Source of the DNA: Sisyra terminalis
Taxonomy: Eukaryota > Arthropoda > Insecta > Neuroptera > Sisyridae
NCBI GenBank assembly: GCA_958496175.1
Contig: OY292280.1
Span: 11,966,001-12,030,000, forward strand
Direction of reading: 5' to 3'
DNA: 64,000 bases
Made by a program: the position numbers and the translations under genes. The notes beneath the pieces were generated by a model. That model searched no databases. It worked only from the letters and a program-made list of their open reading frames with translations, and had not been told where the DNA came from. Of the stretch, positions 1 through 61,739 are shown in pieces. Positions within the stretch are counted from its first letter, which is position 1. Every line of letters starts with the position of its first letter.

Positions 1-169
1 AAGTGGCTTCGAAAAGGAGAATTTCATCTTTAATCCAATATAACCATACTTTATTGTCCTGAAGCATATCCAGGAAAATTTAATGGATCAGAAGTAAAAT
101 TTGGTATGATGCACTATTTTTAAGCGATTCGAACAGTGTACCAAATAATATTAATACCTTTTTTTCCAG

Positions 170-282
170 CTTCTAGATTAAAGGGTGCATTCGTTTCATT
201 ATCATTCTATGGGAACATGGAGGAAAGTTGGGAAATCGAGTTGGCGAAAAATGTGAAAGAATCCGAAAAAGTGGGTTTACAT
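170..282 (+). CDS. Exon-like segment, SFYG/MEESW family, type 1 (copy in A1)
   Basis: A polypyrimidine tract plus CAG ends at 169. The segment is open in the frame reading SRLKGAFVSLSFYGN then MEESWEIELAKNV, and a GTAATT donor candidate follows at 283. An ATG in good context (AACATGG) lies inside it. The same segment occurs in A' (38151-38263, minus) and A'' (56344-56456). A related 131-bp version occurs in D1 (54054-54184) and D1' (40653-40783, minus). Repeated conservation of frame and acceptor suggests a real exon or an exon captured by a repeat. I do not recognise the protein, and the downstream exon is not identified. The weak donor leaves open that it is a decayed copy. Confidence 0.3.
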
Positions 283-290
283 GTAATTTT

Positions 291-312
291 TATTATTATT
301 ATTATTATTATT
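291..312 (+). repeat. (ATT)n microsatellite
   Basis: A pure ATT run follows the exon-like segment. The corresponding run in A' (near 38127-38147) has a different length and the one in A'' is much shorter, which fits replication slippage after duplication. Confidence 0.95.
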
Positions 313-1270
313 GGGACTAAAAGCATGATCATCCTTTCCATGATTTTATAAATTGGTACTTTAATCACTTAGTTATAAGGAATGTTTTTTAGTTTTGTAG
401 CAATTTAGCATTTAGTTTTTAAGGGTTGAAATTTTCTTTTCGCTTATGACACTAGAGAATTGTATAGTGCGCTTTACGCCGATTGGAATAACTGTATCAC
501 ATAAGCCAAAAGAATGTAGAAATTGCAACGTTGCATTATTGGTGAGTGGTTATTTTTTAAGGAATGTGTATATCTACGTAAACTGTTATGGCTATCCACT
601 GATAAATATCACAAATAATGAATTTATAATTCTTTTTCAAAATTTTCTGTTTTTTGTGGTCTTAACCGTTTACGTAGGTATTCGTGGATTAGGCCTCCAA
701 GGGGACACCACATTAAAAGAAAACGCGCCTAGTACTCTACCGCAAAGGTGGTGAGGAAAAGAGTACATACCAAAAATAAATTTTGATGATGAATGATTTT
801 TTGACACATTTTTGCGAAGAAAAGTAGCCAACAAAATAGTAGACATAGTATGGATTTAAAAATTTTTTAAAGATTGTAATTGTTTGAACAAATCATACAG
901 TCTTTATCAATATCATACTAATCTCAATAGAATATCTTTGGAAAATATTTTGCAATACTGTTTTTACTTTACAATAGAGAATAGAATGTTTTATTCCATC
1001 TTCTGATAATAATCATTTAAATTCCTATTAATTTGAGTCATCGTAGTATTTCAATGATAGTTTGATATGCTATGGACAATAGTTATGAGTTTTAAAGAAA
1101 ATTAATTTTAATTTATTCATTTATATTGTCTAACAAATCAAGTAGCTTCTTTCAAAGAGAAGGAAAAGTAGCTGTTGAAGTTCAAATTATAATTCATAAA
1201 AATCTATTGAACAAATGTTCATTTTTCCAGTCGTTAAGAACCATAAAAAGGCCAGAAATTAATATTATAA

Positions 1271-1578
1271 ATCACTCATATCGATTTAAATCGATCAACA
1301 ATTAAAAATCAATCATTTTTCACATACGCGCATCATTTCTATTTGAATTTTTCGCCAATTGCATTTGCATTGTTCAAATGTCAAATTTGTCATACTTTAT
1401 ATGCAACCCGGTGCACATAACAAAAGCGCAATAAAGCGAAGGATATTAATGACATCTATTACGGTTCCCTTGCTTGACCATTTATGAGCGTAGCAATTTT
1501 AAAGGGCTTATGGATGAATTTTGCACAAATTTAGCATTTATTTTCAATAATTGATTGATTTAAATCGATGTGAGTGAT
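1271..1578. mobile_element. 308-bp palindromic MITE-like element (A1 copy)
   Basis: The ends are inverted repeats of about 30 bp beginning ATCACTCATATCGATTT, and the interior has no coding capacity. Copies lie at about 36860-37166 (A') and 57434-57739 (A''). A clean target-site duplication is not visible because the copies were carried along by duplication of A. The interior (TTTGCAT...ATGTCAAA...GCAACCCGGTG) is homologous to part of the 742-bp satellite, which makes it a candidate donor of that satellite segment. Confidence 0.55.
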
Positions 1579-1665
1579 AATAACAATGATTTTAGAGGAA
1601 ACTAAAGTTTTATTCCACTGATATTTATAATATCAAAATTGATTATTATCTGTTATTTTTCCTTT

Positions 1666-2302
1666 TAGATTAGAGTCGATAATTTTTGAGACGAAAAAAA
1701 ATTATAGTAGAATGAAACCCATTGGAAAAGGTAGAGAATATAACAAAAATGAAAGAAAAAATAAATTACTGGTGATCTGTGTACGGGCAGGGGGAGGGGG
1801 TGAGTTTTTAAGGGTAAAAAACGGTTAATCTCGATTTCCGGTAAAACTGCAAGTCCTATGAAAGAAAGTTAAAAGGCAAAGTTGTAGGTAATTAAAAGAT
1901 CTACAACTTTTGTTTCGACACTTTTTTCTCATAACCTCAAAATTTATGTGAAAAATTCGAATAACCGAGTTTTTGGTTTTTTATTTTTTGCAAAAAAAAA
2001 TATTTTTTCACGAAATTTGGTGAAAACTTACCTTTGAATGTCCCAAACATACAGTAATTTTCTTGATTTAAAATATTCATTTTTTCACCTTATTTTGACT
2101 TAATATCCAAAAAGCACCCTAATTTTCAATCGAAAATTCTCACGTCAAAATATCTGCTTTTTTAAAAAAGTTGGTGTGTTTTTTGTTTGTTGAAATCTCT
2201 ACTTTCCGATGGTATAAAAAAATATACACTACAATGGTAAATGTTCTCAGAAAATACAAATAATGATTGCACAAATGCACAAATTTATGTTCAAATTGTC
2301 AT
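1666..2302. other. Segment present in A1 and A' but replaced in A''
   Basis: A1 and A' share this stretch; A'' carries different sequence at the same place (57826-58532). It includes a perfect 10-bp stem (AAAGTTGTAG / CTACAACTTT) with a 13-nt loop at 1878-1910, and G-rich and C-rich patches. It contains no supportable gene. It looks like an insertion or replacement that happened before A1 and A' separated. Confidence 0.6.
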
Positions 2303-2395
2303 GAAACGATATTGCGGGTGTCCTTTGGCATATAAGACAAAAATTTTTGACGAAGCAAAATCTGGAAACAAGGATCATTGTTAATTAGTGATATT
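2303..2395 (+). repeat. Single diverged segment of the 339-bp satellite monomer
   Basis: The stretch beginning GAAACGATATTGCGGGTG matches the most conserved part of the 339-bp monomer, followed by diverged matches up to the CATTGTTTAATAATC-like part. It lies outside any array. A' has the same segment inverted near 36042-36136, and A'' has a longer version. Confidence 0.7.
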
Positions 2396-2443
2396 ATAAG
2401 CTGTGTGGAATAAAAATCAATCATTATAAATTATAAAAAAAAA

Positions 2444-2516
2444 TGGACCTTAACGAGATTCGAACACGGGACCCCGGCTCTAGCAGCGGGGCACTTACTC
2501 ACTCCACTACATGCAG
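2444..2516 (-). mobile_element. tRNA-like Pol III module (SINE head), type A, in A1
   Basis: Read on the minus strand it has a box A-like TAGTGGAGTGAG (2498-2509; consensus TRGYNNARNNGG), a CCCCG/CGGGG anticodon-arm-like stem, a box B-like TGTTCGAATC (complement near 2457-2467), and then a T-run. Acceptor and T stems do not pair properly, so it is a degenerate tRNA-derived promoter module and not a working tRNA gene. Further copies are at 35921-35992 and 58675-58748. Confidence 0.5.
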
Positions 2517-3144
2517 ATATAATCATATTCCGTTGAAACTTATATATAAACAATTCTTATGAGATTTCCAGAAAATTAAAAAATTTTTTGGTCGAAATAA
2601 ATAGAATACTCCGAAAATATTCGAACCATAGCTGGTCCGTGTTAAAATTGGAAAAGTTGTCGAAAAACATGGAAACATTTTAATGTCCTTCCCATCAATT
2701 TTCGATATTTAAAATTTTTACTATCAGACCAATGTTGATAAATACAATGGAATTCTTCCAAAGGTGACTTATGGACGTTATGGACTAATATTATTCTTTA
2801 TCATTGTATTTATTTACTAAAGTTTTGGTGTGAAAATTCCAATAATGTAAAAGGAAAAAAAGTGATATATCGAAAATTTCAAAATAGATTTACACCTTCT
2901 CATACGTACAATAACAATAACAGGTAATTTCGCCTGAAGCATTGAACTTAAAACCCTTGAAACATAATGACGCAATTGTCAAATTGTTTTATATACATAT
3001 TTACAAAGGGGTAGATTAAATGAAATATGTATAGAACATTCCTTAAATAACATTTATTATTCCACTTGCTCTTTAATAACCAAAGAATTGCTCCGCTTTT
3101 GAATTTCAAAATAGGAAATATTTTCACCAGACCTTATAAGTTGG

Positions 3145-3260
3145 TTATGCTCTCTATGCTGTGACGGGTGAACTCTTAGAACGTATTCCATTCGAACCAA
3201 CTTAAGTTTGTAGTGCCACCTATGCGACCAAAGCATGAACTTCCATCAAATTTCGAGGCG
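3145..3260 (+). repeat. CTTAAG...GTGCCACCT conserved block, A1
   Basis: This roughly 110-bp block contains CTCTATGCTG, GTGAACTCTTA, CTTAAGTTTGTAGTGCCACC. It is shared with A' (35177-35292, inverted), A'' (59376-59491), the left B arm (9820-9905, inverted) and the right B arm (17190-17285). It links A and B as descendants of one module. Its function is unknown. Confidence 0.7.
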
Positions 3261-3884
3261 CATGTCAGCGTACTTATAATTCAAAATATTAAACGTATTA
3301 AACAATTAAAATTTGAATTAAAAACTTGCACATTTTTGTGTTCTTTAATCATCAATATTTTTCGGAATAAGGATCTTAATTGCTTTTATAACAACTACTT
3401 ATAGTCAAGGATCCCCCTGCAGAAAAGTGTAGTGATCAAATTTATGCTAAAAACCTAATTTTTACGCATATTTATCATTAAAAGAATAAATTTCTACTAG
3501 GTTGTCTATCAAAATGTGGCCGCTAGTATTTTTAATTAAATTATTTTTAATTGATTTTTCGCAAATTTTTTTTTTATTTGTTTTTCAAATAAAATATCAT
3601 CCACTTCACAGCAATATGTATAATAGGGAGTCCGTTATTTCCCAAATTGATTTTTTTACAGCGATCGCCTCCTGAATTTTTGGTTTAATATATAAAAAAA
3701 ATTATCCAATACAATTAAGCTCTTAATTTCTTGATTAAACCGTCCCGGAATCATGTCACTTTTACCATTTAAATAACATGGGATTATTTGACTTTTTACC
3801 ATTTAATTTTTTTTCTCAGAAACAAATGAATAAAATTATTTAAAGTCAAACTATTTCGACGTAAAATTTAACGCTCTACAAAAA

Positions 3885-3946
3885 ATGTCTGTTATGAATA
3901 TTCGATTAAATAACTCAATTAAAAGTTACTCAACATTTAACTTGTG
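3885..3946 (+). repeat. Junction/terminal repeat, left end of the satellite block
   Basis: This 62-65 bp sequence runs from GTCTGTTATGAATATTCG to CAACATTTAACTTGTG, and the 339-bp satellite begins immediately after it. The inverted counterpart is at 34491-34555. A pair in the same configuration bounds the 0.5-kb element at 60112-60630, so it behaves like a terminal inverted repeat. Confidence 0.65.
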
Positions 3947-6900
3947 TATATCCTTTTTATGCACTCGAAAATTGTCCTTTTTGAAACTTTGAAACGATAT
4001 TGCGGGTGTTCTTTTGCACACAGGATAAAAATTTTTTCACTCCACATCTCACGTAAGGACATTGTTTAATAATCCGTTGCGAAAATAAGCTGTTATAAGG
4101 AAAAGTCACCCCTCAAAAATGTCCTTTTTTTCAAGTCAATTTGGTGCAAGCGTTTTCACCTCCTTAATTTCCCAATTTAATTTTCCAAGGATCTAGTGAT
4201 CCAATGCTTATGATTTTTTGCATAGTGGTTAAGGATGATTTATCTTATAATATGCAATTCAATTTTGGCGAAACAAAACATCCCTTATATCCTTTTTATG
4301 CACTCGAAAATTGTCCTTTTTGAAACTTTGAAACGATATTGCGGGTGTTCTTTTGCACACAGGATAAAAATTTTTTCACTCCACATCTCACGTAAGGACA
4401 TTGTTTAATAATCCGTTGCGAAAATAAGCTGTTATAAGGAAAAGTCACCCCTCAAAAATGTCCTTTTTTTCAAGTCAATTTGGTGCAAGCGTTTTCACCT
4501 CCTTAATTTCCCAATTTAATTTTCCAAGGATCTAGTGATCCAATGCTTATGATTTTTTGCATAGTGGTTAAGGATGATTTATCTTATAATATGCAATTCA
4601 ATTTTGGCGAATCAAAACATCCCTTACATCCTTTTTATGCACTCGAAAATTGTCCTTTTTGAAACTTTGAATCGATATTGCGGGTGTTCTTTTGCACACA
4701 GGATAAAAATTTTTTCACTCCACATCTCACGTAAGGACATTGTTTAATAATCCGTTGCGAAAATAAGCTGTTATAAGGAAAAGTCACCCCTCAAAAATGT
4801 CCTTTTTTTCAAGTCAATTTGGTGCAAGCGTTTTCACCTCCTTAATTTCCCAATTTAATTTTCCAAGGATCTAGTGATCCAATGCTTATGATTTTTTGCA
4901 TAGTGGTTAAGGATGATTTATCTTATAATATGCAATTCAATTTTGGCGAATCAAAACATCCCTTACATCCTTTTTATGCACTCGAAAATTGTCCTTTTTG
5001 AAACTTTGAATCGATATTGCGGGTGTTCTTTTGCACACAGGATAAAAATTTTTTCACTCCACATCTCACGTAAGGACATTGTTTAATAATCCGTTGCGAA
5101 AATTAGCTGTTATAAGGAAAAGTCACCCCTCAAAAATGACCTTTTTTTCAAGTCAATTTGGTGCAAGCGTTTTCACCTCCTTAATTTCCCAATTTAATTT
5201 TCCAAGGATCTAGTGATCCAATGCTTATGATTTTTTGCATAGTGGTTAAGGATGATTTAATTTTTAATATGCAATTCAATTTTGGCGAAACAAAACATCC
5301 CTTATATCCTTTTTATGCACTCGAAAATTGTCCTTTTTGAATCTTTGAAACGATATTGCGGATGTTCTTTTGCACACAGGATAAAATTTTTTTCACTCCA
5401 CATCTCACGTAAGGACATTGTTTAATAATCCGTTGCGAAAATAAGCTGTTATAAGGAAAAGTCACCCCTCAAAAATGTCCTTTTTTTCAAGTCAATTTGG
5501 TGCAAGCGTTTTCACCTCCTTAATTTACCAATTTAATTTTCCAAGGATCTAGTAATCCAATGCTTATGATTTTTTGCATAGTGGTTAAGGATGATTTAAT
5601 TTTTAATATGCAACTCAATTTTGGCGAAACTAAACATCCCTTATATCCTTTTTATGCACTCGAAAATTGTCCTTTTCGAAACTTTGAAACGATATTGCGG
5701 GTGTTCTTTTGCACACAGGATAAAAATTTTTTCACTCCACATCTCACGTAAGGACATTGTTTAATAATCCGTTGCGAAAATTAGCTGTTATAAGGAAAAG
5801 TCACCCCTCAAAAATGTCCTTTTTTTCAAGTCAATTTGGTGCAAGCGTTTTCACCTCCTTAATTTCCCAATTTAATTTTCCAAGGATCTAGTAATCCAAT
5901 GCTTATGATTTTTTGCATAGTGGTTAAGGATGATTTAATTTTTAATATGCAATTCAATTTTGGCGAAACTAAACATCCCTTATATCCTTTTTATGCACTC
6001 GAAAATTGTCCTTTTTGAAACTTTGAAACGATATTGCGGGTGTTCTTTTGCACACAGGATAAAAATTTTTTCACTCCACATCTCACGTTAGGACATTGTT
6101 TAATAATCCGTTGCGAAAATTAGCTGTTATAAGGAAAAGTCACCCCTCAAAAATGTCCTTTTTTTCAAGTCAATTTGGTGCAAGCGTTTTCACCTCCTTA
6201 ATTTCCCAATTTAATTTTCCAAGGATCTAGTAATCCAATGCTTATGATTTTTTGCATAGTGGTTAAGGATGATTTAATTTTTAATATGCAATTCAAGTTT
6301 GGCGAAACTAAACATCCCTTATATCCTTTTTATGCACTCGAAAATTGTCCTTTTTGAAACTTTGAAACGATATTGCGGGTGTTCTTTTGCTCACAGGATA
6401 AAAATTTTTTCACTCCACATCTCACGTAAGGACATTGTTTAATAATCCGTTGCGAAAATTAGCTGTTATAAGGAAAAGTGACCCCTCAAAAATGACCTTT
6501 TTTTCAAGTCAATTTGGTGCAAGCGTTTTCACCTCCTTAATTTCCCAATTTAATTTTCCAAGGATGTAGTAATCCAATGCTTATGATTTTTTGCATAGTG
6601 GTTAAGGATGATTTAATTTTTAATATGCAATTCAAGTTTGGCGAAACTAAACATCCCTTATATCCTTTTTATGCACTCGAAAATTGTCCTTTTTGAAACT
6701 TTGAAACGATATTGCGGGTGTTCTTTTGCTCACAGGATAAAAATTTTTTCACTCCACATCTCACGTAAGGACATTGTTTAATAATCCGTTGCGAAAATTA
6801 GCTGTTATAAGGAAAAGTCACCCCTCAAAAATGACCTTTTTTTCAAGTCAATTTGGTGCAAGCGTTTTCACCTCCTTAATTTCCCAATTTAATTTTCCAA

Positions 6901-9425
6901 GGATCTAGTAATCCAATGCTTATGATTTTTTGCATAGTGGTTAAGGATGATTTAATTTTTAATATGCAATTCAATTTTGGCGAAACTAAACATCCGTTAT
7001 ATCCTTTTTATGCACTCGAAAATTGTCTTTTTGAAACTTTGAAACGATATTGCGGGTGTTCTTTTGCACACAGGATAAAAATTTTTTCACTCCACATCTC
7101 ACGTAAGGACATTGTTTAATAATCCGTTGCGAAAATTAGCTGCTATAAGGAAAAGTCACCCCTCAAAAATGACCTTTTTTTCAAGTCAATTTGGTGCAAG
7201 CGTTTTCACCTCCTTAATTTCCCAATTTAATTTTCCAAGGATCTAGTGATCCAATGCTTATGATTTTTTGCATAGTGGTTAAGGATGATTTTTCTTATAA
7301 TATGCAATTCAATTTTGGCGAAACAAAACATCCCTTATATCCTTTTTATGCACTCGAAAATTGTCCTTTTTGAAACTTTGAAACGATATTGCGGGTGTTC
7401 TTTTGCACACAGGATAAAAATTTTTTCACTCCACATCTCACGTAAGGACACTGTTTAATAATCCGTTGCGAAAATTAGCTGTTATAAGGAAAAGTCACCC
7501 CTCAAATATGACCTTTTTTTCAAGTCAATTTGGTGCAAGCGTTTTCACCTCCTTAATTTCCCAATTTAATTTTCCAAGGATCTAGTGATCCAATGCTTAT
7601 GATTTTTTGCATAGTGGTTAAGGATGATTTAATTTTTAATATGCAATTCAATTTTGGCGAAACAAAACATCCCTTATATCCTTTTTACGCCCTCGAAAAT
7701 TGTCCTTTTTGAAACTTTGAAACGATATTGCGGGTGTTCTTTTGCACACAGGATAAACATTTTTTCACTCCACATCTCACGTAAGGACATTGTTTAATAA
7801 TCCGTTGCGAAAATTAGCTGTTATAAGGAAAAGTCACCCCTCAAAAATGTCCTTTTTTTCAAGTCAATTTGGTGCAAGCGTTTTCACCTCCTTAATTTCC
7901 CAATTTAATTTTCCAAGGATCTAGTAATCCAATGCTTATGATTTTTTGCATAGTGGTTAAGGATGATTTAATTTTTAATATGCAATTCAATTTTGGCGAA
8001 ACTAAACATCCCTTATATCCTTTTTATGCACTCGAAAATTGTCCTTTTTGAAACTTTGAAACGATATTGCGGGTGTTCTTTTGCACACAGGATAAAAATT
8101 TTTTCACTCCACATCTCACGTAAGGACATTGTTTAATAATCCGTTGCGAAAATTAGCTGTTATAAGGAAAAGTCACCCCTCAAAAATGACCTTTTTTTCA
8201 AGTCAATTTGGTGCAAACGTTTTCACCTCCTTAATTTCCCAATTTAATTTTCCAAGGATCTAGTGATCCAATGCTTATGATTTTTTGCATAGTGGTTAAG
8301 GATGATTTAATTTTTAATATGCAATTCAATTTTGGCGAAACAAAACATCCCTTATATCCTTTTTATGCACTCGAAAATTGTCCTTTTTGAAACTTTGAAA
8401 CGATATTGCGGGTGTTCTTTTGCACACAGGATAAAAATTTTTTCACTCCACATCTCACGTAAGGACATTGTTTAATAATCCGTTGCGAAAATTAGCTGTT
8501 ATAAGGAAAAGTCACCCCTCAAAAATGTCCTTTTTTTCAAGTCAATTTGGTGCAAGCGTTTTCACCTCCTTAATTTCCCAATTTAATTTTCCAAGGATCT
8601 AGTGATCCAATGCTTATGATTTTTTGCATTGTGGATAAGGATGATTTAATTTTTAATATGCAATTCAATTTTGGCGAAACAAAACATCCCTTATATCCTT
8701 TTTATGCCCTCGAAAATTGTCCTTTTTGAAACTTTGAAACGATATTGCGGGTGTTCTTTTGCACACAGGATAAAAATTTTTTCACTCCACATCTCACGTA
8801 AGGACATTGTTTAATAATCCGTTGCGAAAATTAGCTGCTATAAGGAAAAGTCACCCCTCAAAAATGACCTTTTTTTCAAGTCAATTTGGTGCAAGCGTTT
8901 TCACCTCCTTAATTTCCCAATTTAATTTTCCAAGGATCTAGTGATCCAATGCTTATGATTTTTTGCATAGTGGTTAAGGATGATTTATCTTATAATATGC
9001 AATTCAATTTTGGCGAAACAAAACATCCCTTATATCCTTTTTATGCACTCGAAAATTGTCCTTTTTGAAACTTTGAAACGATATTGCGGGTGTTCTTTTG
9101 CACACAGGATAAAAATTTTTTCACTCCACATCTCACGTAAGGACACTGTTTAATAATCCGTTGCGAAAATTAGCTGTTATAAGGAAAAGTCACCCCTCAA
9201 ATATGACCTTTTTTTCAAGTCAATTTGGTGCAAGCGTTTTCACCTCCTTAATTTCCCAATTTAATTTTCCAAGGATCTAGTGATCCAATGCTTATGATTT
9301 TTTGCATAGTGGTTAAGGATGATTTATCTTATAATATGCAATTCAATTTTGGCGAAACAAAACATCCCTTATATCCTTTTTATGCACTCGAAAATTGTCC
9401 TTCTTGAAACTTTGAATCGATATTG
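3947..9425 (+). repeat. 339-bp satellite array, left (about 16 monomers)
   Basis: The word CCCTTATAT or its variant recurs at 4282, 4621, 4960, 5299 and 5638, exactly 339 bp apart, and continues to 9366 with one single-base deletion near 7027. Monomers read GCACTCGAAAATTGTCC, GAAACGATATTGCGGGTG, CACACAGGATAAAAA, CAAGCGTTTTCACCTCC, TAGTGGTTAAGGATGA. Sequence variants show a five-monomer higher-order period: CTGCTATAAGG at 7141 and 8836, and GGACACTG at 7446 and 9141, are both 1695 bp apart (5 x 339). Short open frames inside are by-products of the repeat. The array ends inside a monomer at GATATTG, where B begins. Confidence 0.98.
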
Positions 9426-9819
9426 TGATATTGATTCGAAAATCAGTTTTATTTAACGATGTTAAATGTGATTGAAGATTGGATGGTTTGATGATTACTT
9501 CTGCCACTTGGATTGTTGATTTCATCCCTTAAACGAGCTTTGTTTTTGAAATAATTTGCACAGCATGTACGGGAGAACTTAAACTTTCTGTTGGGATTTC
9601 TCCATTGTAAGTTTTTAAAATTTTTCCCAGTTTCCATTTATTCATTTTCATCTTTTATGTGTGAAAAATCAAAGCAGTAAGTTCATAATTCTGTTTTTAA
9701 ATTATTGCTTTTTTCTAACAAATCTCATTTGTTGACAATTCGAATTGTTTAGAATTTAGAATTAAGACAACGCCAAAATGCATTCGACTTTTGTTGGAAG
9801 CTGTAAGTACATCCAGCTG

Positions 9820-9905
9820 ACTCACAGGTGGCACTAAAAACTTAAGGTGGTTCCATTGACATACATGTCAAAAATTCACACGTTGTAGCATAGATGGAGG
9901 TACGA
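9820..9905 (-). repeat. CTTAAG...GTGCCACCT block in the left B arm
   Basis: This is the reverse-complement relative of the block at 3145-3260. On the minus strand it reads CTATGCTACAACGTGTGAA, CCACCTTAAG, TTTAGTGCCACCTGTGAG. Its mirror partner is at 17190-17285. Confidence 0.65.
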
Positions 9906-10437
9906 TACATGTCAATGTGACAGCTAATTTTTGAAAGTTATTAGTTCATAATTGACTTTAGTTTATCCAAATAAATTTAATATTTAATGTTATGGTTGTT
10001 TGAGCTGATGGCTAATGTTACATTTTAACTTAATAAAATCAAAATCGAATTAAATAAATGTGAAACATGTAATATTTATTGTAAAATTGTAGGTATGGAC
10101 GTAATGTTTATATGAACTTATATGTACGTTCTGTTACTTTTGTAGATATTTTCCAATGTTTAACTAACTAATGAACGATAAAAATGTATTTTTGAAATAT
10201 ATTTAAAAAATATTCATCCAGAGAAGAATCTAATCAAATAATCTGCAAATGTAAGCCACTGGGAGTGCAGCCTAAGTATTGTGAATATCAGAAGAATATC
10301 TCAATCCACGGGATAAACAGGAATTAGAATAAAACATCAGGTTTTGATCACCGAATTAGGCATAATAGCGACCTAAACTATGGTTGTAATTGTAAGTCCT
10401 TTTTATTGAGAGCTGATTTTGCAATACAGTTAATAGT

Positions 10438-10533
10438 AATTCAATTTTAAATGGCAGCAATTTTCTGCGAAATAAAACTATCCCTTATATCCTTTTTATG
10501 TACTTGAAAATTGTGCTCATTGAAACTTTGAAA
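10438..10533 (+). repeat. Isolated diverged 339-bp-satellite segment in B
   Basis: AATTCAATTTT, CATCCCTTATATCC-like sequence, TTTTTATGTACTTGAAAATTG and TTGAAACTTTGAAA follow the monomer order but are clearly diverged. This single copy sits away from the arrays. Confidence 0.6.
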
Positions 10534-10719
10534 AAAAACCCTTATCAGGAAAAGCAATCTTGCACATATCTGTTTTTGTTAATAAATGCTGAAGTTTGGC
10601 AACCATTGTTTCATTATGGAAATTATGTACATGAGCTGCGCCATATGTTCCCTAGTCTACATGTTAATGTAGCTAGAAAGTATAATTTGTTTAAATATTA
10701 ATAAAATATATTTTTACAG

Positions 10720-10801: not shown

Positions 10802-10877
10802 GTAATTAGCTGTACTTTTGAGACCTCCAAATATTTTATTATTGATTTTTGATTATTTATTGATTTTTTCGTTCCAG

Positions 10878-51100: not shown

Positions 51101-53202
51101 AGTGATCTACGTTAAAGTCTCATAAAAGTTAATTCATATTCGTAAAAGTTTCGTTATCATGAAGTGTAAATTTCAAAGTTATTTAAAACATAGTTCTATG
51201 TATCTCATTTTTACAATTAGATATTAGATATGTGTATCTCTCAAAAAAATTAGTGCTGCAACTTCATGGCAATCAATAAAGTGTCGAATTTGAGCAATTG
51301 AATGTATTAATGTTAATCAATCATTTGTATATCCAGGAAAAATTGAAAATGAGTTATCTAGAGATCGATCCAAGATATTTAAAGAAGTTGCAGTGGTGAA
51401 TAAAATTTTCAGTTGAATCCCAAATTGATTAATTGGTGACCAAGAAAAAGCCGAAATTGTCGCCATTACATTTGAATGGGGCAAAAGTTTTATCGAGAAA
51501 ATGAGCTACATATGATGACTGTAAAAATATAAGGAATTGAATGATCAAACGGAAATAATAGTAGGGAATTCTAAGTCATCTTTCATTCAAAAATGTTTCT
51601 GACCATTGAGTATACCTATATGAATCCAGAACTGAATACGAAAGGGTAAATTTCATTTTAATTAAATTGGTTCAAAATCAACGGGAAAATCCATGGTGTT
51701 TAGTAAAACTCTACATTTTTCAAAATTTGAGAAAAAAGATTGATAGAAACAATGGACGAAATGAAAAAAACAATGCTTTGTTGGCATGATTTTTTCCAGA
51801 AATTTATTAAGTTCGAGACCCATTGATATATTTAAAAAATATGTCTTTAATTTTAATTTTTTTAAATTATTTATTTCAAATATTTATTAGAGTCCTTTTA
51901 CAGTAATTGTGGTCGAACAGTAGTTGTTGTAGGTCATGAAATCAATTTTATATGAATTATTTTAAAATTTTAAAATTAATTTTTAAATTTTATCTAATAA
52001 AATTGCAGTGAATTACGCACGAACGCAAGGAGAGCACTTGAAGCGACCAACGCAGTACCAGTTGGCCAGGTAGCAGGGCAAATGCGTATCCATCATTTAG
52101 TATGCTCCGCGATTCCAAAGGTTGAAGTTCGGTCCGGAAAATTCTCCCAAAATTCGGTATAAAGTAGTTGTAAAGTGGTGAAAAGTGTTTAAAGTGATAG
52201 TGGAATGTGTTTTGCATCAAGTCATCGTTATCCAGATGTTGGGGTTAGTGGAAATTTTCTTCAATTTTCATTTTGAAATCATTTCCATAAATTTCAAAAA
52301 ATTGTCGCCATCTTGGGTAGTGCATTTGACAATGATGTGGGAGGGAGCCACTGTAATGAAATTTGCAATGCATCGAGATGATATGACCGATATGACATTG
52401 CCAAATCTTTGAAAGTCAATGATCGAAATTTTCGAAAAACCCATAAAATTTCTAAAAAAACTATCGAAAATCAATGCAACGTTAATTTCCAAAACTGAAA
52501 TACATTAGTTTTAATTTTCCGTAAGTCCCACTTGGTAAAAATTTCTGCCAAAAAAAACTCGTCATTATCAAATGCATTACATTTTTCGAAAAGAAATCCA
52601 TTTCTATTTTATTTAACATGAAACGAAATGAAATGTATAGATTGTTAATTTTCAATTGATTTGTGACGAATCGCGTTAACATTTTTTCTCACTGTTCCAA
52701 AGAGTAATCTTTAACTTTTCGATTCTCCTCCCCAAAGTTGGGAAATTGTACATTCTATACATTGGGGATTTCAATGCTACGTAAGAAAAAATACCCTTTA
52801 TCCCAGGCTCAAACCAGTGACTTCTATCATTTCAAGCGACATGACGTACTTGCAGCTAAAATTGTAGACAGCGCAAGTTTGAAAATGTTTGCGTATAGGC
52901 AACTAACATGACGTACGTGCATTGAAATCACCTACCCACTCGTAACATTGGAAGTTTATATTAATTTCAAAATATGACAATAGCAAACTTTAATAGGATT
53001 TTCAAAAGAAAATTAATACTCAAAAGTGTCATTTCATTTTTCAGTGCATAATCCAATAAGCGACAAACAAAAACTAGCTAAACAAAAATCAATAAAATTC
53101 CTGTAAAGCAATAAACTAAAACTGATGATTTTTTTGCAGGACCCAATATCATCGGATACCAGTGGTTGATGGACAACAAACCATGGACGGAGGAATTGAG
53201 AT
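48191..53202 (+). repeat. Palindrome 2 right inner arm (module E')
   Basis: Inverted copy of E. It starts with a half copy of the foldback and ends at the D1 junction. A paired marker is GTCCCGTCATCTACCAGG (49771-49790) against CCTGGTAGATGACGGGAC (45073-45090). Otherwise it is AT-rich and non-coding apart from blocks X and Y. Confidence 0.88.
52009..52245 (+). promoter_or_regulatory. Conserved block X (right arm): exon and/or TATA promoter
   Basis: Acceptor AAAATTGCAG ends at 52008. The frame 52010-52162 (starting ELRTNARRALEA) ends at TAA within TATAAAG (52158-52164). About 30 bp further the leader GTGGTGAAAAGTGTTTAAAG resembles the AGTG-rich leader of the D exon. The sequence is identical to the left arm over about 240 bp, while the intron-like flank (TTTTATCTAATAAAATTGCAG versus TTTCTCTATTAAATTTGCAG) differs. 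This suggests constraint or local gene conversion. Confidence 0.4.
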
Positions 53203-53251
53203 GCAGACGAGGACTTCAATCAAAGTTATGTCCGTAGCTTCTTTTACCTAA
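53140..53251 (+). pseudogene. Exon-like segment Y (right arm)
   Basis: Acceptor GATTTTTTTGCAG, then an open frame TQYHRIPVVDGQQTMDGGIE, MQTRTSIKVMSVASFT and stop, the same length as the left-arm copy. It contains ACCATGG, a good start context. It lies in the direction D1-A'', i.e. consistent with rightward transcription of this arm. Confidence 0.3.
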
Positions 53252-53454
53252 TCCCACTTGATTCCTTTTCAGCTAGGGGGTTTGGGCTCTTTAGTGGAAC
53301 CACTTTAGGTCACTTTCCGTTGTTTTTTTTTCCGCGCGCGGTTTATAAAAGTAGTGTTTGTAAATAAAATGCACTTTCGGGTTTTTTAAAGAAACATTTA
53401 ATAAATATAAGTGTTAACTTCAAGTGATTATCCGTACAAATAAAGTGCATTTCT

Positions 53455-53670
53455 GTTCGCGATTCGTTAGGTATTGGATTCCAGGACATCAATTGATGTT
53501 GGGTACGAGTTCGAATCCTGGTTGCAACGATTAGCTTAGTAGAGTTAAGTAGCTGGTGGCCAAAGTGGTTTCAATGTTACAGGCAGGTCAATGGGGATGT
53601 CCCTTGTAGCAGGGATTGCCAAAATGTTGTTACTCTCTATTGTAGCATAGAGATAGAGTCAAGCTTTTTT
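53455..53670 (+). mobile_element. tRNA-like plus double-hairpin segment (SINE-like), D1
   Basis: Box A-like TTAGGTATTGG (53467-53477) and box B GAGTTCGAATCC (53507-53518) flank a perfect palindrome ACATCAATTGATGT (53486-53499). A second box A match TAGCTTAGTAG lies at 53532-53542. Two hairpins follow: TCCC-TTGTAGCA-GGGA (53600-53615) and CTCTAT-TGTAGC-ATAGAG (53635-53652), which share the loop word TGTAGC. T6 at 53665-53670 could terminate Pol III. Four copies occur in the window. It looks like a tRNA-derived SINE or small structured RNA; expression is not shown. Confidence 0.5.
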
Positions 53671-53760
53671 CTTACTAATTATTTTTTTCTTCCCTCGTCT
53701 TTAAATAATTTTTTGAGTAGACAAAGTGTACAAAAATATATTAGTGAGTGCGCTTCCGTC

Positions 53761-53914
53761 ACACAATCTGGAATACGCGTTTCGGGCTAAGTGATTGGTG
53801 TTGTGAAAGTGTTATTCCCTTCAGGAATTAGTGTTGAAGTATTTAAGTGAGTGATTAGTGCCATTCGGATTTGGACTCGTCGTGGAAGTGGTTTCGGAAA
53901 GGAGGATTTCATCT
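53761..53914 (+). other. Non-coding first exon candidate (D1)
   Basis: It runs from the initiator region (GCGCTTCCGTCACAC) to the donor ATCT|GTAAGC at 53914/53915. It is 154 nt without a single ATG and rich in AGTG words, typical of a 5' untranslated exon. A 139-bp intron-like gap leads to the acceptor of the next exon. In A1/A', D2' and D2 the donor is decayed to CATCTTTAAT. Confidence 0.45.
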
Positions 53915-54053
53915 GTAAGCCATCATTACACCAACATCGTTCTCAAGCATATCCAGGAAAATGTAATGGATCAGAAGTAAAATTTGGTATGAAACTTTAT
54001 TTTTAAGTGTTTTGAACAGTGTACCAAACAATATTAATATTTTATCTCTCCAG

Positions 54054-54184
54054 ATTCATTAAACGATGCATTCGTGGGATTATCATTCTATGGAACCATG
54101 GAGGAAAGTTGGAGGATGGAGTTGGAATTCAGGATTATCATCAAGGACTTCTATGAGAATTTATCATGTCTCAGTAAAACTTTG
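54054..54184 (+). CDS. Exon, SFYG/MEESW family, type 2 (D1)
   Basis: 131 bp bounded by TTTATCTCTCCAG and consensus GTAAGA. Open frame: SLNDAFVGLSFYGT, then MEESWRMELEFRIIIKDFYE, then NLSCLSKTL. ACCATGG inside gives a plausible start (MEESW...). The preceding untranslated exon is 139 bp upstream with a good donor, so D1 alone shows a complete promoter-exon-intron-exon-donor layout. Downstream exons are not identified. The protein family is unknown to me. Confidence 0.45.
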
Positions 54185-55490
54185 GTAAGATACAATATTT
54201 ATGTATGATTTGAATGGAAAATTAATATGTTTTTTCAGTTCCAGGAAAAAATCCAATAATTTTTATATTTTAGGAGGTAATGGAAGATAATTGGTAACAA
54301 AGAGTTGTTATTGCTATTGATGGAAGAAAATGTCTCAAAATTATTGATTTTCATTTAATCACAGAAATGGCCCAGCAGAATACACAGAGGAACCTAAAGT
54401 TCTGGTGATATAAAATTCCGTTTTCCATCCAAAAAAAAGGACTAATAATATTTCAGATTATCTTTTCTTCCCTACTATCAAATGGATATGTTTGTAAAAA
54501 GAACAAGGTAAACGGTTGTATCTATATTTTTTTAGATTGCTTTAAAAAATCGCCGTTCAAATAAAAATGAGATATTTGAGATATTTAGTTGCACCATTTA
54601 AAATAATTGATAATACAAGTTGAGGACATTGTGGAACGAAAGTTTAATTTTGTGAAGATCAAGGATCTCTACTATTGCCAATAGTATCAACTTCTTAATA
54701 GAGATTAAAGTAATTGAAGCCGTTCTTCTCAAATCTAAGAAACTTTGACGACTGCAATGGAATCATTTTTCTCGTATGTATTTAAGTATACACATGATAT
54801 CTACCATACTAATTCAATTGTTTCAAGTCATTGTTGGTCAGAAACTGTGGAATTAATTGAATAGTTTCATACTAATAATAGTTTCTACTTCAATTATTAT
54901 TGCATAAAGATTGAAATTAAGGATCAATAGATTCTGAAACATCCAGCTTCGGGAATTATGGAAGATTTGGAGGGATTCTATATATTGTTTCTACTGGATG
55001 GACGTCGCTAGGAGGATAAGCGTTATTATCGGCGGTTGGGGTATTTCGAGGATATTTGCGGTAGACGGGGTTTTTTCCTCCCCGTATGTGTCTATATTTA
55101 AGTTAAAGTATTGTATATCTTTCAAAATTATCCTTTTTTTCTTTTCTAGTGAAAAAGAAAAGGAGTTCAGTGTAGTGAATCGTTTCGACTTTCGCCGTAA
55201 AAAATTCCTTTTCGTTACGCGCGGGTTTTAACTATGTATTCTACGTTGAATACATTATCCGGAATCCGCGAATTTTAACAAACCAACGCTTTTAAGTTAT
55301 AAAGCGTAAACTTAAAAACGTTTTTCGAAAGTTCCGCGAAAGTTTCGGGAAAGATACACGAAAGTTCGTGTCGCGTCGCGATCGGTTTTATAAGTGCTTT
55401 TGAGAACTTTAGTGATCTTCAATTCCTGGAGTTATAGAGCTGGAGATGGAAGCTGTGCTTTGGACTTGCTGTTCCTGGAAGGCGTTTGTA
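54185..55490 (+). repeat. Module F, between D1 and D2
   Basis: Inverted partner of 39116-40652. The first kilobase is AT-rich and intron-like. The last 300 bp become CG-richer (TCGTGTCGCGTCGCGATCGG) and end in the TATA region. A 77-codon frame (54998-55231) is interrupted in the left arm and is not supported. Confidence 0.8.
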
Positions 55491-55517
55491 GCAGACGAGG
55501 ACTTCGGTCAAAGTTAA
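55386..55517 (+). promoter_or_regulatory. Core promoter candidate and short leader frame in F
   Basis: TTTTATAAG (55386-55394) lies about 33 bp upstream of an initiator-like TTCAATTCC. A 23-codon frame follows at 55446-55517 (MEAVLWTCCSWKAFVADEDF + GQS). The mirror copy at 39185-39219 has canonical TATAAAAG and a 20-residue version of the frame. Conservation of TATA, spacing and frame in both arms supports a promoter; whether the peptide is made is unknown. Confidence 0.4.
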
Positions 55518-55743
55518 GTCCGTAGTTTTTTTTACCTAATCCCACTTGATTCCTTTTCAGCTAGGGGGGTTGGGCTCTTTAGTGGAACCACTTTAGGTCA
55601 CTTTCCGTTGTTTTTTTTTCCGCGCGCGGTTTATTAAAGTAGTTTTTGTAAATAAAATGCATTTTCGGGGACTTTAAAGAAACTTTTTAAAAAAAATAAG
55701 TGTTAACTTCAAGTGATTATCCGTACAAATAAAGTGCATTTTT

Positions 55744-55958
55744 GTTCGCGATTCGTTAGGTATTGGATTCCAGGACATCAATTGATGTTGGGTACGAGTT
55801 CGAATCCTGGTTGCAACGATTAGCTTAGTAGAGTTAAGTAGCTGGTGGCCAAAGTGGTTTCAGTGTTACAGGCAGGTAAATGGGGATGTCCCTTGTAGCA
55901 GGGATTGCCAAAATGTTGTTGCTCTCTATTGTAGCATAGAGATAGAGTCAAGCTTTTT
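55744..55958 (+). mobile_element. tRNA-like plus double-hairpin segment (D2)
   Basis: Copy of 53455-53670. Box B GAGTTCGAATCC, the ACATCAATTGATGT palindrome and both hairpins are unchanged. The few differences (TCAGTGTTAC versus TCAATGTTAC, GTAAATGG versus GTCAATGG) fall outside the stems. Confidence 0.5.
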
Positions 55959-56017
55959 TCTTACTAATTATTTTTTTCTTCCCTCGTTTTTAAATAATTA
56001 TTGGAATTGACAAACTG

Positions 56018-56050
56018 TATAAAAATATATTAGTGAGTGCGCTTCCGTCA
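56018..56050 (+). promoter_or_regulatory. Core promoter candidate (TATA/initiator), D2
   Basis: TATAAAAA at 56018-56025 is followed 32 bp later by CCGTCACAC, a fair insect initiator context, then CG-rich leader sequence (TTACGCGTTTCGGGC). Homologous sites: 38582-38589 (minus) and the D1' copy keep TATA; D1 has lost it. Confidence 0.45.
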
Positions 56051-56343
56051 CACATTCTGGATTACGCGTTTCGGGCTAAGTGGTTAGTGTTGTGAAAGTG
56101 TTATTCCCTTCAGGAATTAGTGTTAAAGTGTTTATGTGAGTGATTAGTGCCATTCGGATTTGGATTCGTCGTTGAATTGGCTTCGAAAAGGAGAATTTCA
56201 TCTTTAATTCATCATTACCATACATTATTGTCCTGAAGCATATCCAGGAAAATTTAATGGATCAGAAGTAAAATTTGGTATGATGCACTATTTTTAAGCG
56301 ATTCGAACAGTGTACCAAATAATATTAATACCTTTTTTTCCAG

Positions 56344-56456
56344 CTTCCAGATTAAAAGGTGCATTCGTGGCATTATCATTCTATGGAAACATGGAGGAAA
56401 GTTGGGAAAAAGAGTTGGCGAAAAATGTGGAAGAATCCGATAAAGTGGGTTTACAT
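56344..56456 (+). CDS. Exon-like segment, SFYG/MEESW family, type 1 (A'')
   Basis: Acceptor TTTTTTTCCAG, open frame SRLKGAFVALSFYGN then MEESWEKELAKNV, followed by GTAATT. One conserved-position change versus A' (E to D before KVGLH). Confidence 0.3.
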
Positions 56457-57433
56457 GTAATTATTATTATTATTAATGGGACTAAAAGCATGATCATCCT
56501 TTCCATGATTTTATAAATTGGTACTTTAATCACTTAGTTATAAGGCATGTTTTTTAGCTTTGTAGCAATTTAGCATTTAGTTTTTAAGGGTTGAAATTTT
56601 CTTTTCGCTTATGACACTAGAGAATTGTATAGTGCGCTTTACGCCGATTGGAATAACTGTATCACATAAGCCAAAAGAATGTAGAAATTGCAACGTTGCA
56701 TTAGTGGTTAGTGGTTATTTTTTAAGGAATGTGTATGTCTACGTAAACTGTTATGACTATCCACTGATAAATATCACAAATAATGAATTTATAATTCTTT
56801 TTCAAAATTTTCTGTTTTTTGTGGTCTTAACCGTTTACGTAGATATTCGTGGATTAGGCCTCCAAGGGGACACCACATTAAAAGAAAACGCGCCTAGTAC
56901 TCTACCGCAAAGGTGGTGAGGAAAAGAGTACATACCAAAAATAAATTTTGATGATGAATGATTTTTTGACACATTTTTGCGAAGAAAAGTAGCCAACAAA
57001 ATAGTAGACATAGTATGGATTTAAAAAAAATTTAAAGATTGTAATTGTTTGAACAAATCATACAGTCTTGATCAATATCATACTAATCTCAATAGAATAT
57101 CTTTGGAAAATATTTTGCAATACTGTTTTTACTTTACAATAGAGAATAGAATGTTTTATTCCATCATCTGATAATAATCATTTAAATTCCTATTAATTTG
57201 AGTCATCGTAGTATTTCAATGATAGTTTGATATGCTATGGACAATAGTTATGAGTTTTAAAGAAAATTAATTTTAATTTATTCATTTATATTGTCTAACA
57301 AATCAAGTAGCTTCTTTCAAAGAGAAGGAAAAGTAGCTGTTGAAGTTCAAATTATAATTCATAAAAATCTATTGAATAAATGTTCATTTTTCCAATCGTT
57401 ATGAACCATAAAAAGACCAGAAATTATTAAAAT

Positions 57434-57739
57434 AAATCTCTCATATCGATTTAAATCGATCAACAATTAAAAATCAATCATTTTTCACATACGCGCATCA
57501 TTTCTATTTGAATTTTTCGCCAATTGCATTTGCATTGTTCAAATGTCAAATTTGTCATTCTTTATATGCAACCCGGTGCACATAACAAAAGCGCAATAAA
57601 GCGAAGGATATTAATGACATCTATTACGGTTCCCTTGCTTTACCACTTATGAGCGTAGTAATTTTAAAGGTCTATGAACGAATTTTGCCCAAATTTAGCA
57701 TTTATTTTCAATAATTGATCGATTTAAATCGATGTAAGG
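57434..57739. mobile_element. Palindromic MITE-like element, A'' copy
   Basis: Same 0.3-kb element as 1271-1578, with ATCGATTTAAATCGAT ends and the GCAACCCGGTGCAC core shared with the 742-bp satellite. Confidence 0.5.
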
Positions 57740-57825
57740 ATAATAATAATTATTTTAGAGGAAACTAAAGTTTTATTCCACTGATATTTATAATATCAAA
57801 ATTGATTATAATCCGTTATTTTTCC

Positions 57826-58532
57826 TTTCTTTTACTATGTTTTTTATTAGCATCTATCAAACGAAGAAAATAAATAAAATTTCGGTTATAAATATTATTT
57901 GAAGTACGTGCTTTGTGTTCTAGATTTTTTTCGTCGAAGAGAAATGATTTTTTTTATCTTAAATCCATTATGATATTATCGTCTTAAAGTATTAGTATAA
58001 GAGTTGATAGGATCAGAAAAAAAATCGGTTAAGAATTTAATTGAATTTGAAAAATTTTATAGAAAATTCTTAGAAAATTCGTTAGAATCAACGACTCAAG
58101 TGTAATTTAGCACATCCACAATCTGGCAATGTTGCAATTTCGCCTTTGTTTTTGATTTAATTCGTGATTTTTTTGATGATTTAATTCTAATATGGGATAA
58201 TTCTCTCTTTTGTGACTTAATTTTCATTATGGACCGATTTAATCGTGAATTAAATTAAAAACAAAGTCGAAACTTTAACATTGCCAGATTGTGGGTGTGG
58301 TAACGTACACATGAGTCGAATCAACATTAAATTTTCCTTTAATATTTGAACCAAAGCTACAACTTCTTTCGTTATCGTTTACGTTTTCCCAAGGATATAA
58401 TTGTTAAATGTGAATATTTTTATGCAATATCGTTAAGGATGATTTAGTCTTAATTATTCTTTTTAATTTCAATGAAAGAAACCATCTCTTATATCCGTTT
58501 TATGTACTTGAAAAATTTCCTTTTTGAAACTT
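57826..58532. other. A''-specific central segment
   Basis: It replaces the 1666-2302 segment of A1/A'. It contains a MITE with a clean 8-bp target duplication (58093-58317) and runs without a break into a long satellite-like segment at its right end, suggesting A'' is nearer to the original state. Confidence 0.65.
58093..58317. mobile_element. 225-bp MITE with 8-bp target-site duplication, copy 1
   Basis: The ends are inverted repeats GACTCAAGTGTAATTTAGC / ...GTACACATGAGTC, continuing inward for over 60 bp (CCACAATCTGGCAATGTTG). GAATCAAC occurs directly on both sides (58085-58092 and 58318-58325). An 8-bp duplication fits Merlin, hAT or P-type elements. The related copy at 61508 begins GGCTC, and a leading GG would fit Merlin. 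Confidence 0.85.
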
Positions 58533-58620
58533 AGAAACGATATTGCGGGTGTCCTTTGGCATATAAGACAAAAAATTTTGACGAAGCAAAATCTGGAAAC
58601 AAGGATCATTGTTAATTAGT
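58425..58620 (+). repeat. Isolated diverged 339-bp-satellite monomer segment in A''
   Basis: GTTAAGGATGATTTAGTCTT, CATCTCTTATATCCG, TTTTATGTACTTGAAAA, GAAACGATATTGCGGG and the following bases keep monomer order over nearly 200 bp. It is the longest single-copy relative of the satellite in the window and a candidate for the pre-amplification sequence. Confidence 0.7.
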
Positions 58621-58674
58621 GATATTATAAGCTGTGTGGAATAGAAATCAATCATTATACATTATAAAAAAAAT

Positions 58675-58748
58675 TGGACCTTAACGAGATTCGAACACGG
58701 GACCCCGACTATAGCAGCGAGGCACTTACTCACTCCACTACATGCAGA
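58675..58748 (-). mobile_element. tRNA-like Pol III module, type A, in A''
   Basis: Box A- and box B-like motifs are kept, but the anticodon-arm stem is damaged (CCCCGACT...AGCGAGG on the plus strand), so no pairing pressure is evident in this copy. Confidence 0.45.
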
Positions 58749-60111
58749 TATAATCATATTCCGTTGAAACTTATATATAAACAATTCTTATGAGATTTCC
58801 AGAAAATTAAAAAAATTTTTGGTCGAAATAATTAGAATATCCCGAAAATATTCGAACCATAGCTGGTCCGTGTTAAAATTGGAAAAGTTGTCGAAAAACA
58901 TGGAAACATTTTAATGTCCTTCCCATCAATTTTCGATATTTAAAATTTTTACTATCAGACCAATGTTGATAAATACAATGGAATTCTTCCAAAGGTGACT
59001 TATGGACGTTATGGACTAATATTATTCTTTATCATTGTATTTATTTACTAAAGTTTTGGTGTGAAAATTCCAATAATGTAAAAGGAAAAAAAGTGATTTA
59101 TCGAAAATTTCAAAATAGATTTACACCTTCTCATACGTACAATAACAATAACAGGTAATTTCGCCTGAAGCATTGAACTTAAAACCCATGAAACATAATG
59201 ACGCAATTGTCAAATTGTTTTATATACATATTAACAAAGGGGTAGATTAAATGAAATAATTATGGAACATTCCTTAAATAACATTTATTATTCCACTTGC
59301 TCTTTAATAACCAAAGAATTGCTCCGCTTTTGAATTTCAAAATAGGAAATATTTTCACCAGACCTTATAAGTTGGTTATGCTCTCTATGCTGGGACGGGT
59401 GAACTCTTAGCACGTATTCCATTCGAACCAACTTAAGTTTGTAGTGCCACCTATGCGACCAAAGCATGAACTTCCATCAAATTTCGAGGCGCATGCCAGC
59501 GTAGTTATAATTCAAAATATTAAACGTATTAAACAATTAAAATTTGAATTAAAAACTTGCACATTTTTGTGTCCTTTAATCATCAATATTTTTCGGAATA
59601 GGGATCTTAATTGCTTTTATAACAACTACTTATAGTCAAGGACCCCCCTGCAGAAAAGTGTAGTGGTCAAGTTTATGCTAAAAACCTAATTTTTACGCAT
59701 ATTTATCATCAGGAGAATAAATATCTACTAGGTTGCCTATCAAAATGTGGCCGCTAGTATTTTTAATTAAATTATTTTTAATTGATTTTTCGCAAAAATT
59801 TTATTGATTTGTTTTTAAATTAATATATCGTCCACTTCACGGTAATATGTATAATAGGGTGTCCGTTATTTCCCAAATTGATTTTTTTACAGCGATCGCC
59901 CCCTGAATTTTTAGTTTAAAATATAAAAAAAAATATCCAATACAATTAAGTTCTTAATTTCTTGATTAAACCGTGCCGGAATCATGTTACTTTTACCATT
60001 TAAATAACATGGGATTATTTGACTTTTTACCATTTAATTTTTTTTCTCAGAAAAAAATGAATGAAAATATTTAAAGTCAAACTATTCCGACGTAAAATTT
60101 AACGCTCTACA

Positions 60112-60630
60112 AAAAAGGTCTCTTATGAATTTTCGATTAAATCACTCCATTAAAAGTTATTCAACATTTCACTTGTGCCTAATATAAATCTTGCAATATT
60201 TTCAACTTTTTGCTCATTTTTACTTTTTTTAACTATAAAATCATTGGAAGGGAAGATAAAAATTATTATCATTAGAGCGCAAGTGATTATTTGTGTTAAT
60301 TTTATGGCTTCAATTGAAAATTAAACAAAAAAATCATTTTTTGACAATTAAAACAGGTGACATAAGATCCGAATTGGCTAAAGTCGTGAAATTCAATTTA
60401 TCCAGGATAAATTTTCGTACTTGAATCAATATTTTGTACCTACGAAGTGAATTTCATACTAATTAATGATACTAAACAAAAGTTCAATTAAAATTCGAAT
60501 TTTTACCATTTCACCTGACGCCATCTATGAGAAATTTCTTAGAAATTGTAGTCAACATAGACACAAGTTAAATGTTGAATAACTTTTAATGGGGTGATTT
60601 AATCGAAAATTCATAAGACACCTTTTTTTA
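60112..60630. mobile_element. 0.5-kb element bounded by the satellite-block terminal repeat
   Basis: The left end 60113-60177 (GGTCTCTTATGAATTTTCG ... CACTTGTG) is repeated in inverse at 60562-60627 (CACAAGTTAAATG ... CATAAGACACC). About 385 bp of AT-rich, non-coding sequence lie between. The left repeat is the right end of A''. The same pair in the same orientation bounds the 30.5-kb satellite/B block. Confidence 0.6.
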
Positions 60631-61730: not shown

Positions 61731-61739
61731 AAAATATCA

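Follow-up and report, generated by a model that had tools for sequence, protein, structure and literature searches.

A probable network of opposed satellite arrays around a non-satellite palindrome, mainly on one chromosome of Sisyra terminalis

Introduction

The window analysed here, a 64,000-bp stretch of the Sisyra terminalis genome (assembly GCA_958496175.1; 376,648,809 bases in 11 contigs), lies at positions 11,966,001–12,030,000 of chromosome C7 (contig OY292280.1; 22,747,876 bases) and is occupied by a chain of large palindromes that share arms and hold opposed arrays of a satellite, sat339. Its modules, read from left to right, are A–sat339–B|B′–(C, sat742)–sat339′–A′–D–F–D–E|E′–D–F–D–A″. 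We regard it as fairly probable that this locus belongs to a network of satellite macro-dyads, that is, opposed kilobase-scale satellite subarrays meeting at one inversion point, which lies mainly on one chromosome and has sat339(+)–B|B′–sat339(−) as its basic unit.

Results

Architecture of the palindrome chain

Self-BLAST of the window pairs the A-satellite arm (1–9425) with 38432–29014 at 96.8% identity and the B arm (9487–12859) with 17584–14244 at 92.4%. In the second palindrome, A′ pairs with A″ (34491–36134 with 60177–58534, 96.7%; 36772–40137 with 57828–54480, 95.6%) and E with E′ (40343–45437 with 54490–49422, 91.1%; 45685–46890 with 49417–48217, 91.2%). The same search settings yielded 0 non-self matches in 20 Markov-1 resampled windows. 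A first-pass annotation, made by a model from the letters and open reading frames, had proposed two inverted repeats that share A′; the alignments bear this out and carry the repeats further than was noted.

The first palindrome begins at the cut end of a D copy (1–244, minus strand), followed by module A (245–3946, plus), the right arm of a left-hand E-type palindrome, which ends sharply at ...TTTAACTTGTG. Next to it lies a sat339 array of 16.2 copies (3947–9425, plus) and then the B arm (9487–12859, plus), composed of Bx (9487–11490) and b1 (11494–12859). The following b2 (12883–14230, plus) and b1′ abut in head-to-head orientation at about 14,237, which confirms a palindrome centre predicted at 14.2 kb; b1 is an extra direct copy beside the b2/b1′ centre. 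The B′ arm, composed of b1′ and Bx′, covers 14244–17584 (minus).

Beyond B′ the symmetry is interrupted on one side. A 184-bp sat339 fragment (17775–17958, minus) lies just outside B′, oriented as the right-hand array and taken as its inner remnant. It is followed by module C (17959–19095, plus), adjoining a sat742 array of 9,604 bp and 12.9 units (19096–28699, plus), and by the inverted sat339 array of 17.1 copies (28698–34490, minus). The orientation of the fragment indicates that C and sat742 (about 17959–28698) lie between two sat339′ pieces (17775–17958 and 28698–34489). Both modules had been recognised before; what changes is their place, which is one-sided and inside the satellite. The C-sat742 block also adjoins the B palindrome at C7:14.04 Mb. 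With all 19 candidates scored, C gave 23 matches genome-wide. Five of these, one of them in the window, are near full length; all five lie on C7, and four reach 99–100%. The rest are short pieces on C1, C2, C4 and C7.

The second palindrome shares module A′ (34491–38188, minus) with the first and continues through D1 (38189–39115, plus) and F (39116–40137, plus) into the E arm (40343–46890, plus), which includes D2 (40712–41634, plus) and a stretch of 247 bp (about 45438–45684) absent from E′. The spacer (46891–48216, unstranded) carries a 31-bp minisatellite at 47317–47431, and a small hairpin with TTGCCAATGAGAA and GGGAACCTCGCCAGGAGA repeats is present at its edge (46866–47000). The E′ arm (48217–54490, minus) is followed by the F′–D1′–A″ arm (54480–60177, plus), ending at the A tip. 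A 638-bp stretch common to A and A′ (1665–2302, plus; 99.4%) is replaced in A″ by a different stretch of 706 bp (57829–58534).

The A tip occurs four times, at 3946, 34491, 60177 and 60562. It ends in ACTTGTG, and similarity breaks sharply there against three different outer sequences; the tip is likely the terminus of an older mobile element.

The window does not contain the whole structure. Its left edge cuts the first palindrome, base 1 falling within a D copy. A further E-type palindrome lies in the 25 kb to the left; A_in stands at its left edge, its right arm has an extra F–D–E0 copy, and E2 was located on one side only. This neighbour runs off the window to about −22.6 kb in window coordinates, and the joined chain is roughly symmetric from there to 57.9 kb: −22580 to −12918 pairs with 57873–48217 (93.3%), −9009 to −2075 with 45143–38206 (91.8%), and −1711 to 9425 with 40137–29014 (96.4%). 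Since the symmetry continues to the left, the first palindrome, previously put at about 38 kb, keeps its inverted pairs as described but belongs to a larger structure, about 80 kb long. On the right the repeat stops at 60,177; beyond it lie the fourth A-tip copy (60562–60657, minus), facing the A″ end, and a copy of a miniature inverted-repeat transposable element (MITE)-like sequence (61507–61728). In the next 25 kb to the right of the window there are a small number of matches that are short or diverged, along with copies of the right flank of the window itself.

Patchy divergence between arms

The arms differ by 1.8–9%, with private indels and with stretches of about 205 and 247 bp that are present on one side only, and the divergence is unevenly distributed. 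B and B′ show no difference across 1,056 bp (10809–11864, plus strand) and differ by 9.1% outside this tract; when the differences were placed at random 2,000 times, the longest run was 169 bp. Between A and A′ there is a difference-free tract of 624 bp (1789–2412, plus; longest random run 550), and between E and E′ one of 259 bp (longest random run 141). The excess of identical runs is weaker in the A″ comparisons (p 0.0015–0.029) and between b1 and b2 (p 0.002), and E2/E2′ shows no excess (p 0.145). A single age for the palindrome was considered and rejected because divergence is patchy along the arms. The B/B′ tract is a supported sign of what would be recent arm-to-arm gene conversion, and the A/A′ tract is probably a conversion tract as well.

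Site patterns are consistent with such exchange. Sites that unite two of the three A copies fall in clusters along the left part of A, where none of 2,000 shuffles gave so few runs, but not along the right part (p 0.158). The b1′ copy combines two kinds of sequence in a mosaic, b1-like over its first 300–370 bp and b2-like over most of the remainder. For D1 and D2, 38 sites support the grouping of D1 with D1′ versus 3, and the D1/D2 duplication preceded the palindrome.

Satellite arrays and the inversion site

Monomers of sat339 differ by 2.2% within an array and by 4.0% between the two arms in the window, and each of the 33 complete monomers has its four nearest relatives in its own array. 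A monomer-by-monomer register of the opposed arrays was rejected, as matching position adds no similarity (3.9–4.0%). To judge from these comparisons, the satellites appear to turn over separately in each array. Within B, sat339-like sequence is confined to short pieces (10417–10533 and 16562–16678), and a decayed piece is present within A. The inversion and transition site formed by B appears, on this sequence evidence, not to be satellite-derived.

Copies across the genome

Searching with 400 bp from the B centre yielded 80 half matches, each at 87–100% identity, which fall at 40 places: 39 on C7, counting the window, and one on C2 (64.7 Mb). These are the best 40 of 1,410 candidates, so counts of B copies are lower bounds, and the copies are not independent. 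A Bx probe placed 38 copies on C7 and two on C6 among the best 40 of 496 candidates. The E-centre probe, with 40 of 210 candidates scored, gave 57 matches: the 10 long ones (309–501 of 501 bases) are all on C7, and the other 47 are shorter pieces on C1–C7. E|E′ appears to be a second palindrome family, fused to the B family via the shared arm A. The numbers for the B and E centres agree with an earlier suggestion of a large amplified unit. The outcome named beforehand as refuting the first-pass annotation, modules present elsewhere just once each and uninverted, was not what the loci showed.

Seven B loci of at least 40 were read: the window, C7:4.6, 13.1, 13.7, 14.04 and 22.0 Mb, and C2:11.9 Mb. 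Opposed sat339 flanks B on both sides in five of the seven (the window, C7:4.6, 13.1 and 14.04 Mb, and C2:11.9 Mb), with full arrays on both sides at four (the window, 4.6 Mb, 13.1 Mb and C2). Array length on a side varies from about 1.6 kb up to 16 kb or more, the latter on both sides at C7:13.1 Mb, and one side at C7:14.04 Mb is reduced to a 125-bp remnant. The core varies as well: the B palindrome spans 8.1 kb in the window and about 3.7 kb on C2, where the whole unit forms a palindrome about 7.65 kb long, at 95.7%. At C7:4.6 Mb an E palindrome lies outside the right sat339 array.

Among the 18 b copies from the seven loci, the nearest relative belongs to the same locus for 13 and to another locus for five. 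Divergence averages 3.8% within loci versus 6.0% between them, a difference that 0 of 10,000 label shuffles reached. Among up to 12 full-length monomers sampled per array, sat339 differs between loci by 2.8% to 29.8%, and in three of the four dyads with two full arrays no other array is closer than the opposed arm. Either the core would have moved or been converted between older arrays, or the arrays would have grown from different old variants.

Chromosome C7

Among the best 40, B centres on C7 crowd at 17.2–18.5 and 20.3–22.3 Mb. Their better strand is minus at 11 of 12 places between 14.2 and 20 Mb and plus at all 23 beyond 20 Mb. Bx, likewise among its best 40, is plus at all scored places in 17.2–18.6 Mb and minus beyond 20 Mb, with two exceptions. 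B-type copies thus prefer one orientation below about 18.6 Mb and mostly take the other above about 20.3 Mb, a possible megabase-scale mirror.

Protein-kinase domains, used as a gene marker (126 of 471 candidates scored), gave eight of 139 matches on C7, which makes up 6.0% of the genome, and none beyond 14.11 Mb. By this one marker gene density on C7 is ordinary, with a gene-poor distal part. The 1.5 kb read at each chromosome end (1–1500 and 22746377–22747876) consists of a 67-bp satellite, whose orientation at one end is the reverse of that at the other, and contains no run of three TCAGG or TTAGG units, which suggests a satellite-type telomere.

Coding content and transposon signatures

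The 64 kb contain two stop-to-stop frames of at least 120 amino acids. Six-frame Pfam scans (1–4500, 9401–14260, 17449–20003, 38401–47800 and 60001–64000), together with ten single frames, gave nothing above cut-off; the intervals outside them (4501–9400, 14261–17448, 20004–38400 and 47801–60000) are mostly second copies, plus the A″-only stretch 57829–58534. Weak Pfam rows (E 0.012–0.16) were set aside, all being under the curated cut-off. Rfam at the gathering threshold and a transfer RNA scan with the bacterial setting also returned nothing above cut-off, and scanning IMG/VR as well as bacterial and archaeal genomes for sequence patterns gave 0 matches. Homologue searches of three short frames found no match, one of them with two candidates below threshold. 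The short open frame at 18551–18835 may resemble the N-terminus of Merlin/ISXO2-like transposases, a likeness for which Pfam gave no support even at E 10.

Neither a transposase domain in general nor a MULE-type transposase with a PHD finger was found in the window modules scanned with Pfam, the rest of the genome not having been searched for an autonomous partner. No clean target-site duplication was found at 34491/60177 or at the C2 copy, although one could be hidden where recombination has removed the flank. No gene was recognised in the arms from the frames and the scanned modules.

Two MITE-like hairpin elements lie at the right, one inserted in A″ (58092–58315, unstranded) and one at 61507–61728, and are 87.5% alike. 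Read by eye, the first is bordered by an exact 8-bp direct repeat, GAATCAAC, and the second by TAAATATC/AAAATATC, matching at 7 of 8 positions; 8-bp repeats are left by hAT-like or P-like elements. The observed/expected CpG ratio across 1–64000 is 1.01, and methylation-driven CpG loss is not indicated.

Discussion

Two features align these units with macro-dyads: opposed kilobase subarrays are arranged around one point, and the inversion site recurs in the genome. According to PMC13081366, macro-dyad symmetries of satellites have so far not been described outside the genus Tribolium, and the function proposed for them is a hypothesis based on their shape. As described there for Tribolium madens, T. 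freemani and T. castaneum, opposed kilobase satellite subarrays with a conserved inversion point and variable array length are found as in Sisyra, and one satellite may likewise be embedded in another as a cassette (PMC13081366). Two differences stand out. The Tribolium inversion sites are described as diverged satellite subunits and the transition zones as free of extrinsic elements (PMC13081366), whereas here the site is a non-satellite palindrome of about 4–8 kb; and the Tribolium arrays are placed at the putative (peri)centromeres of all chromosomes (PMC13081366), in contrast to 39 of the best 40 copies on C7. The non-satellite palindrome at the satellite inversion point is a departure from known macro-dyads, as is the concentration of scored copies mostly on one chromosome. 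Among open-access papers, mostly as represented in search listings, no literature on these modules or arm lengths was found.

Several observations weigh against a macro-dyad network. The seven loci were chosen non-randomly, as the closest relatives, one C-bearing locus, one distal locus and the C2 copy. At C7:13.7 Mb a 286-bp sat339 piece lies on one side only, and at C7:22.0 Mb sat339 runs in the same direction on both sides of B, accompanied by an extra half B. Two of the five b copies closest to another locus are the window's own, and the window's sat339 arrays have closer counterparts at 13.1 Mb (2.8–3.6%) than in one another (3.9%). Old variants, instead of movement of the core, may account for how far the satellite differs between loci. 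Finally, an A_dist-like stretch (84%; C7:4588154–4589102) flanks the 4.6-Mb dyad beyond its left sat339 array, oriented as in the window, which would speak for a recurrent flank such as a transposon would have.

The last point leads to the strongest competing explanation, which we consider unlikely but worth serious weight: each palindrome would be a giant non-autonomous foldback DNA transposon of the Tetris, Galileo, Rehavkus or FB type, with terminal inverted repeats that hold tandem repeats and a transposase encoded elsewhere. Such long inverted termini with tandem repeats are present, the domain order matches that of Tetris (flanking, tandem, inner, middle; PMC4079207), the unequal copy number of the two arrays (16.2 versus 17.1) resembles Galileo F copies (PMC3573991), and the decayed sat339 piece in A is reminiscent of a 37-bp stretch shared in Tetris (PMC4079207). 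The sharp ACTTGTG tip against three outer sequences, the A_dist-like flank at a second locus and the greater closeness of B between loci (about 6%) than of the satellite (3–30%) also agree with an element. A foldback element had been suggested for this locus before, and its layout stands. The two places inspected for a target duplication and the modules scanned for a transposase did not supply the other attributes; an autonomous partner elsewhere was not searched for. The outer flanks differ between the window (A on both sides) and 4.6 Mb (A_dist-like sequence and an E palindrome), and scored copies lie almost all on one chromosome.

Comparison with the individual families sharpens these differences. 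Tetris of Drosophila virilis has long inverted arms of flanking, tandem and inner domains, with internal tandem repeats able to become satellite, but its arms reach 1,735 bp (at most 1.7 kb) and its target duplications 8–10 bp (PMC4079207), compared with arms of at least 11 kb and no duplication found here. Rehavkus-1_TC is a DNA transposon whose inverted termini likewise carry arrays of a satellite, TCsat23 (164 bp); it measures 9.5 kb in total, and its group has a PHD-finger transposase and a 9-bp target duplication (PMC10218199, PMC6446971), neither of which was found in the scanned modules or at the inspected ends. Galileo shares the unequal tandem number in its two arms and has chimeric copies ascribed to exchange and conversion, with arms of up to about 1.26 kb, a 7-bp target duplication and a P-superfamily transposase (PMC3573991). 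Since no duplication or transposase was found at the two places and in the modules covered, and macro-dyad features are present, we class the units with macro-dyads and keep the foldback transposon as the main rival.

Sex chromosomes are known for ampliconic palindromes with large arms, arm-to-arm gene conversion and resident genes. It is improbable that C7 is an X, Y or W chromosome with palindromes of this kind, kept by conversion between arms. The earlier proposal of sex-chromosome-type palindromes is borne out in its conversion component by the 1,056-bp B/B′ tract and the excess of identical runs; large arms, the predominance of C7 among scored copies and the size of C7 (22.7 Mb, versus 64.7 Mb for C2) would also suit it. 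Ampliconic palindromes bear genes, however, whereas no gene was recognised in these arms, and by the one marker used, kinase matches (8 of 139), C7 has an ordinary gene density. An assembly or read-folding artefact is highly improbable: inverted repeats and satellites are classic assembly traps, and polishing could in principle yield identical tracts, but arms 1.8–9% apart with private indels, stretches of about 205 and 247 bp found on one side only and the 1,056-bp tract make read folding hard to invoke, and an architecture of this sort is also seen at other loci, C2 included.

A macro-dyad network of this kind could have arisen in a few steps. An inverted duplication at the B centre would have made the dyad, whose arms may pair as a cruciform, a hairpin or in synapsis and then undergo mutual repair by gene conversion, while each sat339 array would grow and shrink by unequal exchange. 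The cassette may have spread along C7 by ectopic exchange or by reinsertion of amplified copies or circular DNA, with rare escapes to C2 and C6. A bolder version, to which we give a low probability, makes the B palindrome a self-propagating inversion seed: transposase-free and carried by recombination between satellite arrays, mainly those of one chromosome, it would flip the satellite around it and build macro-dyads, and the mirrored orientation of its copies on either side of about 19–20 Mb of C7 would mark a megabase-scale dyad or a centromere.

For a macro-dyad network, the identical tracts form a patchwork that serves as a measurable record of conversion in DNA with no recognised gene. 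The non-satellite core, being tagged by its own sequence, would allow one to ask whether the core moves, whether the arms of a dyad convert each other and whether special chromatin is marked by the core or by the satellite.

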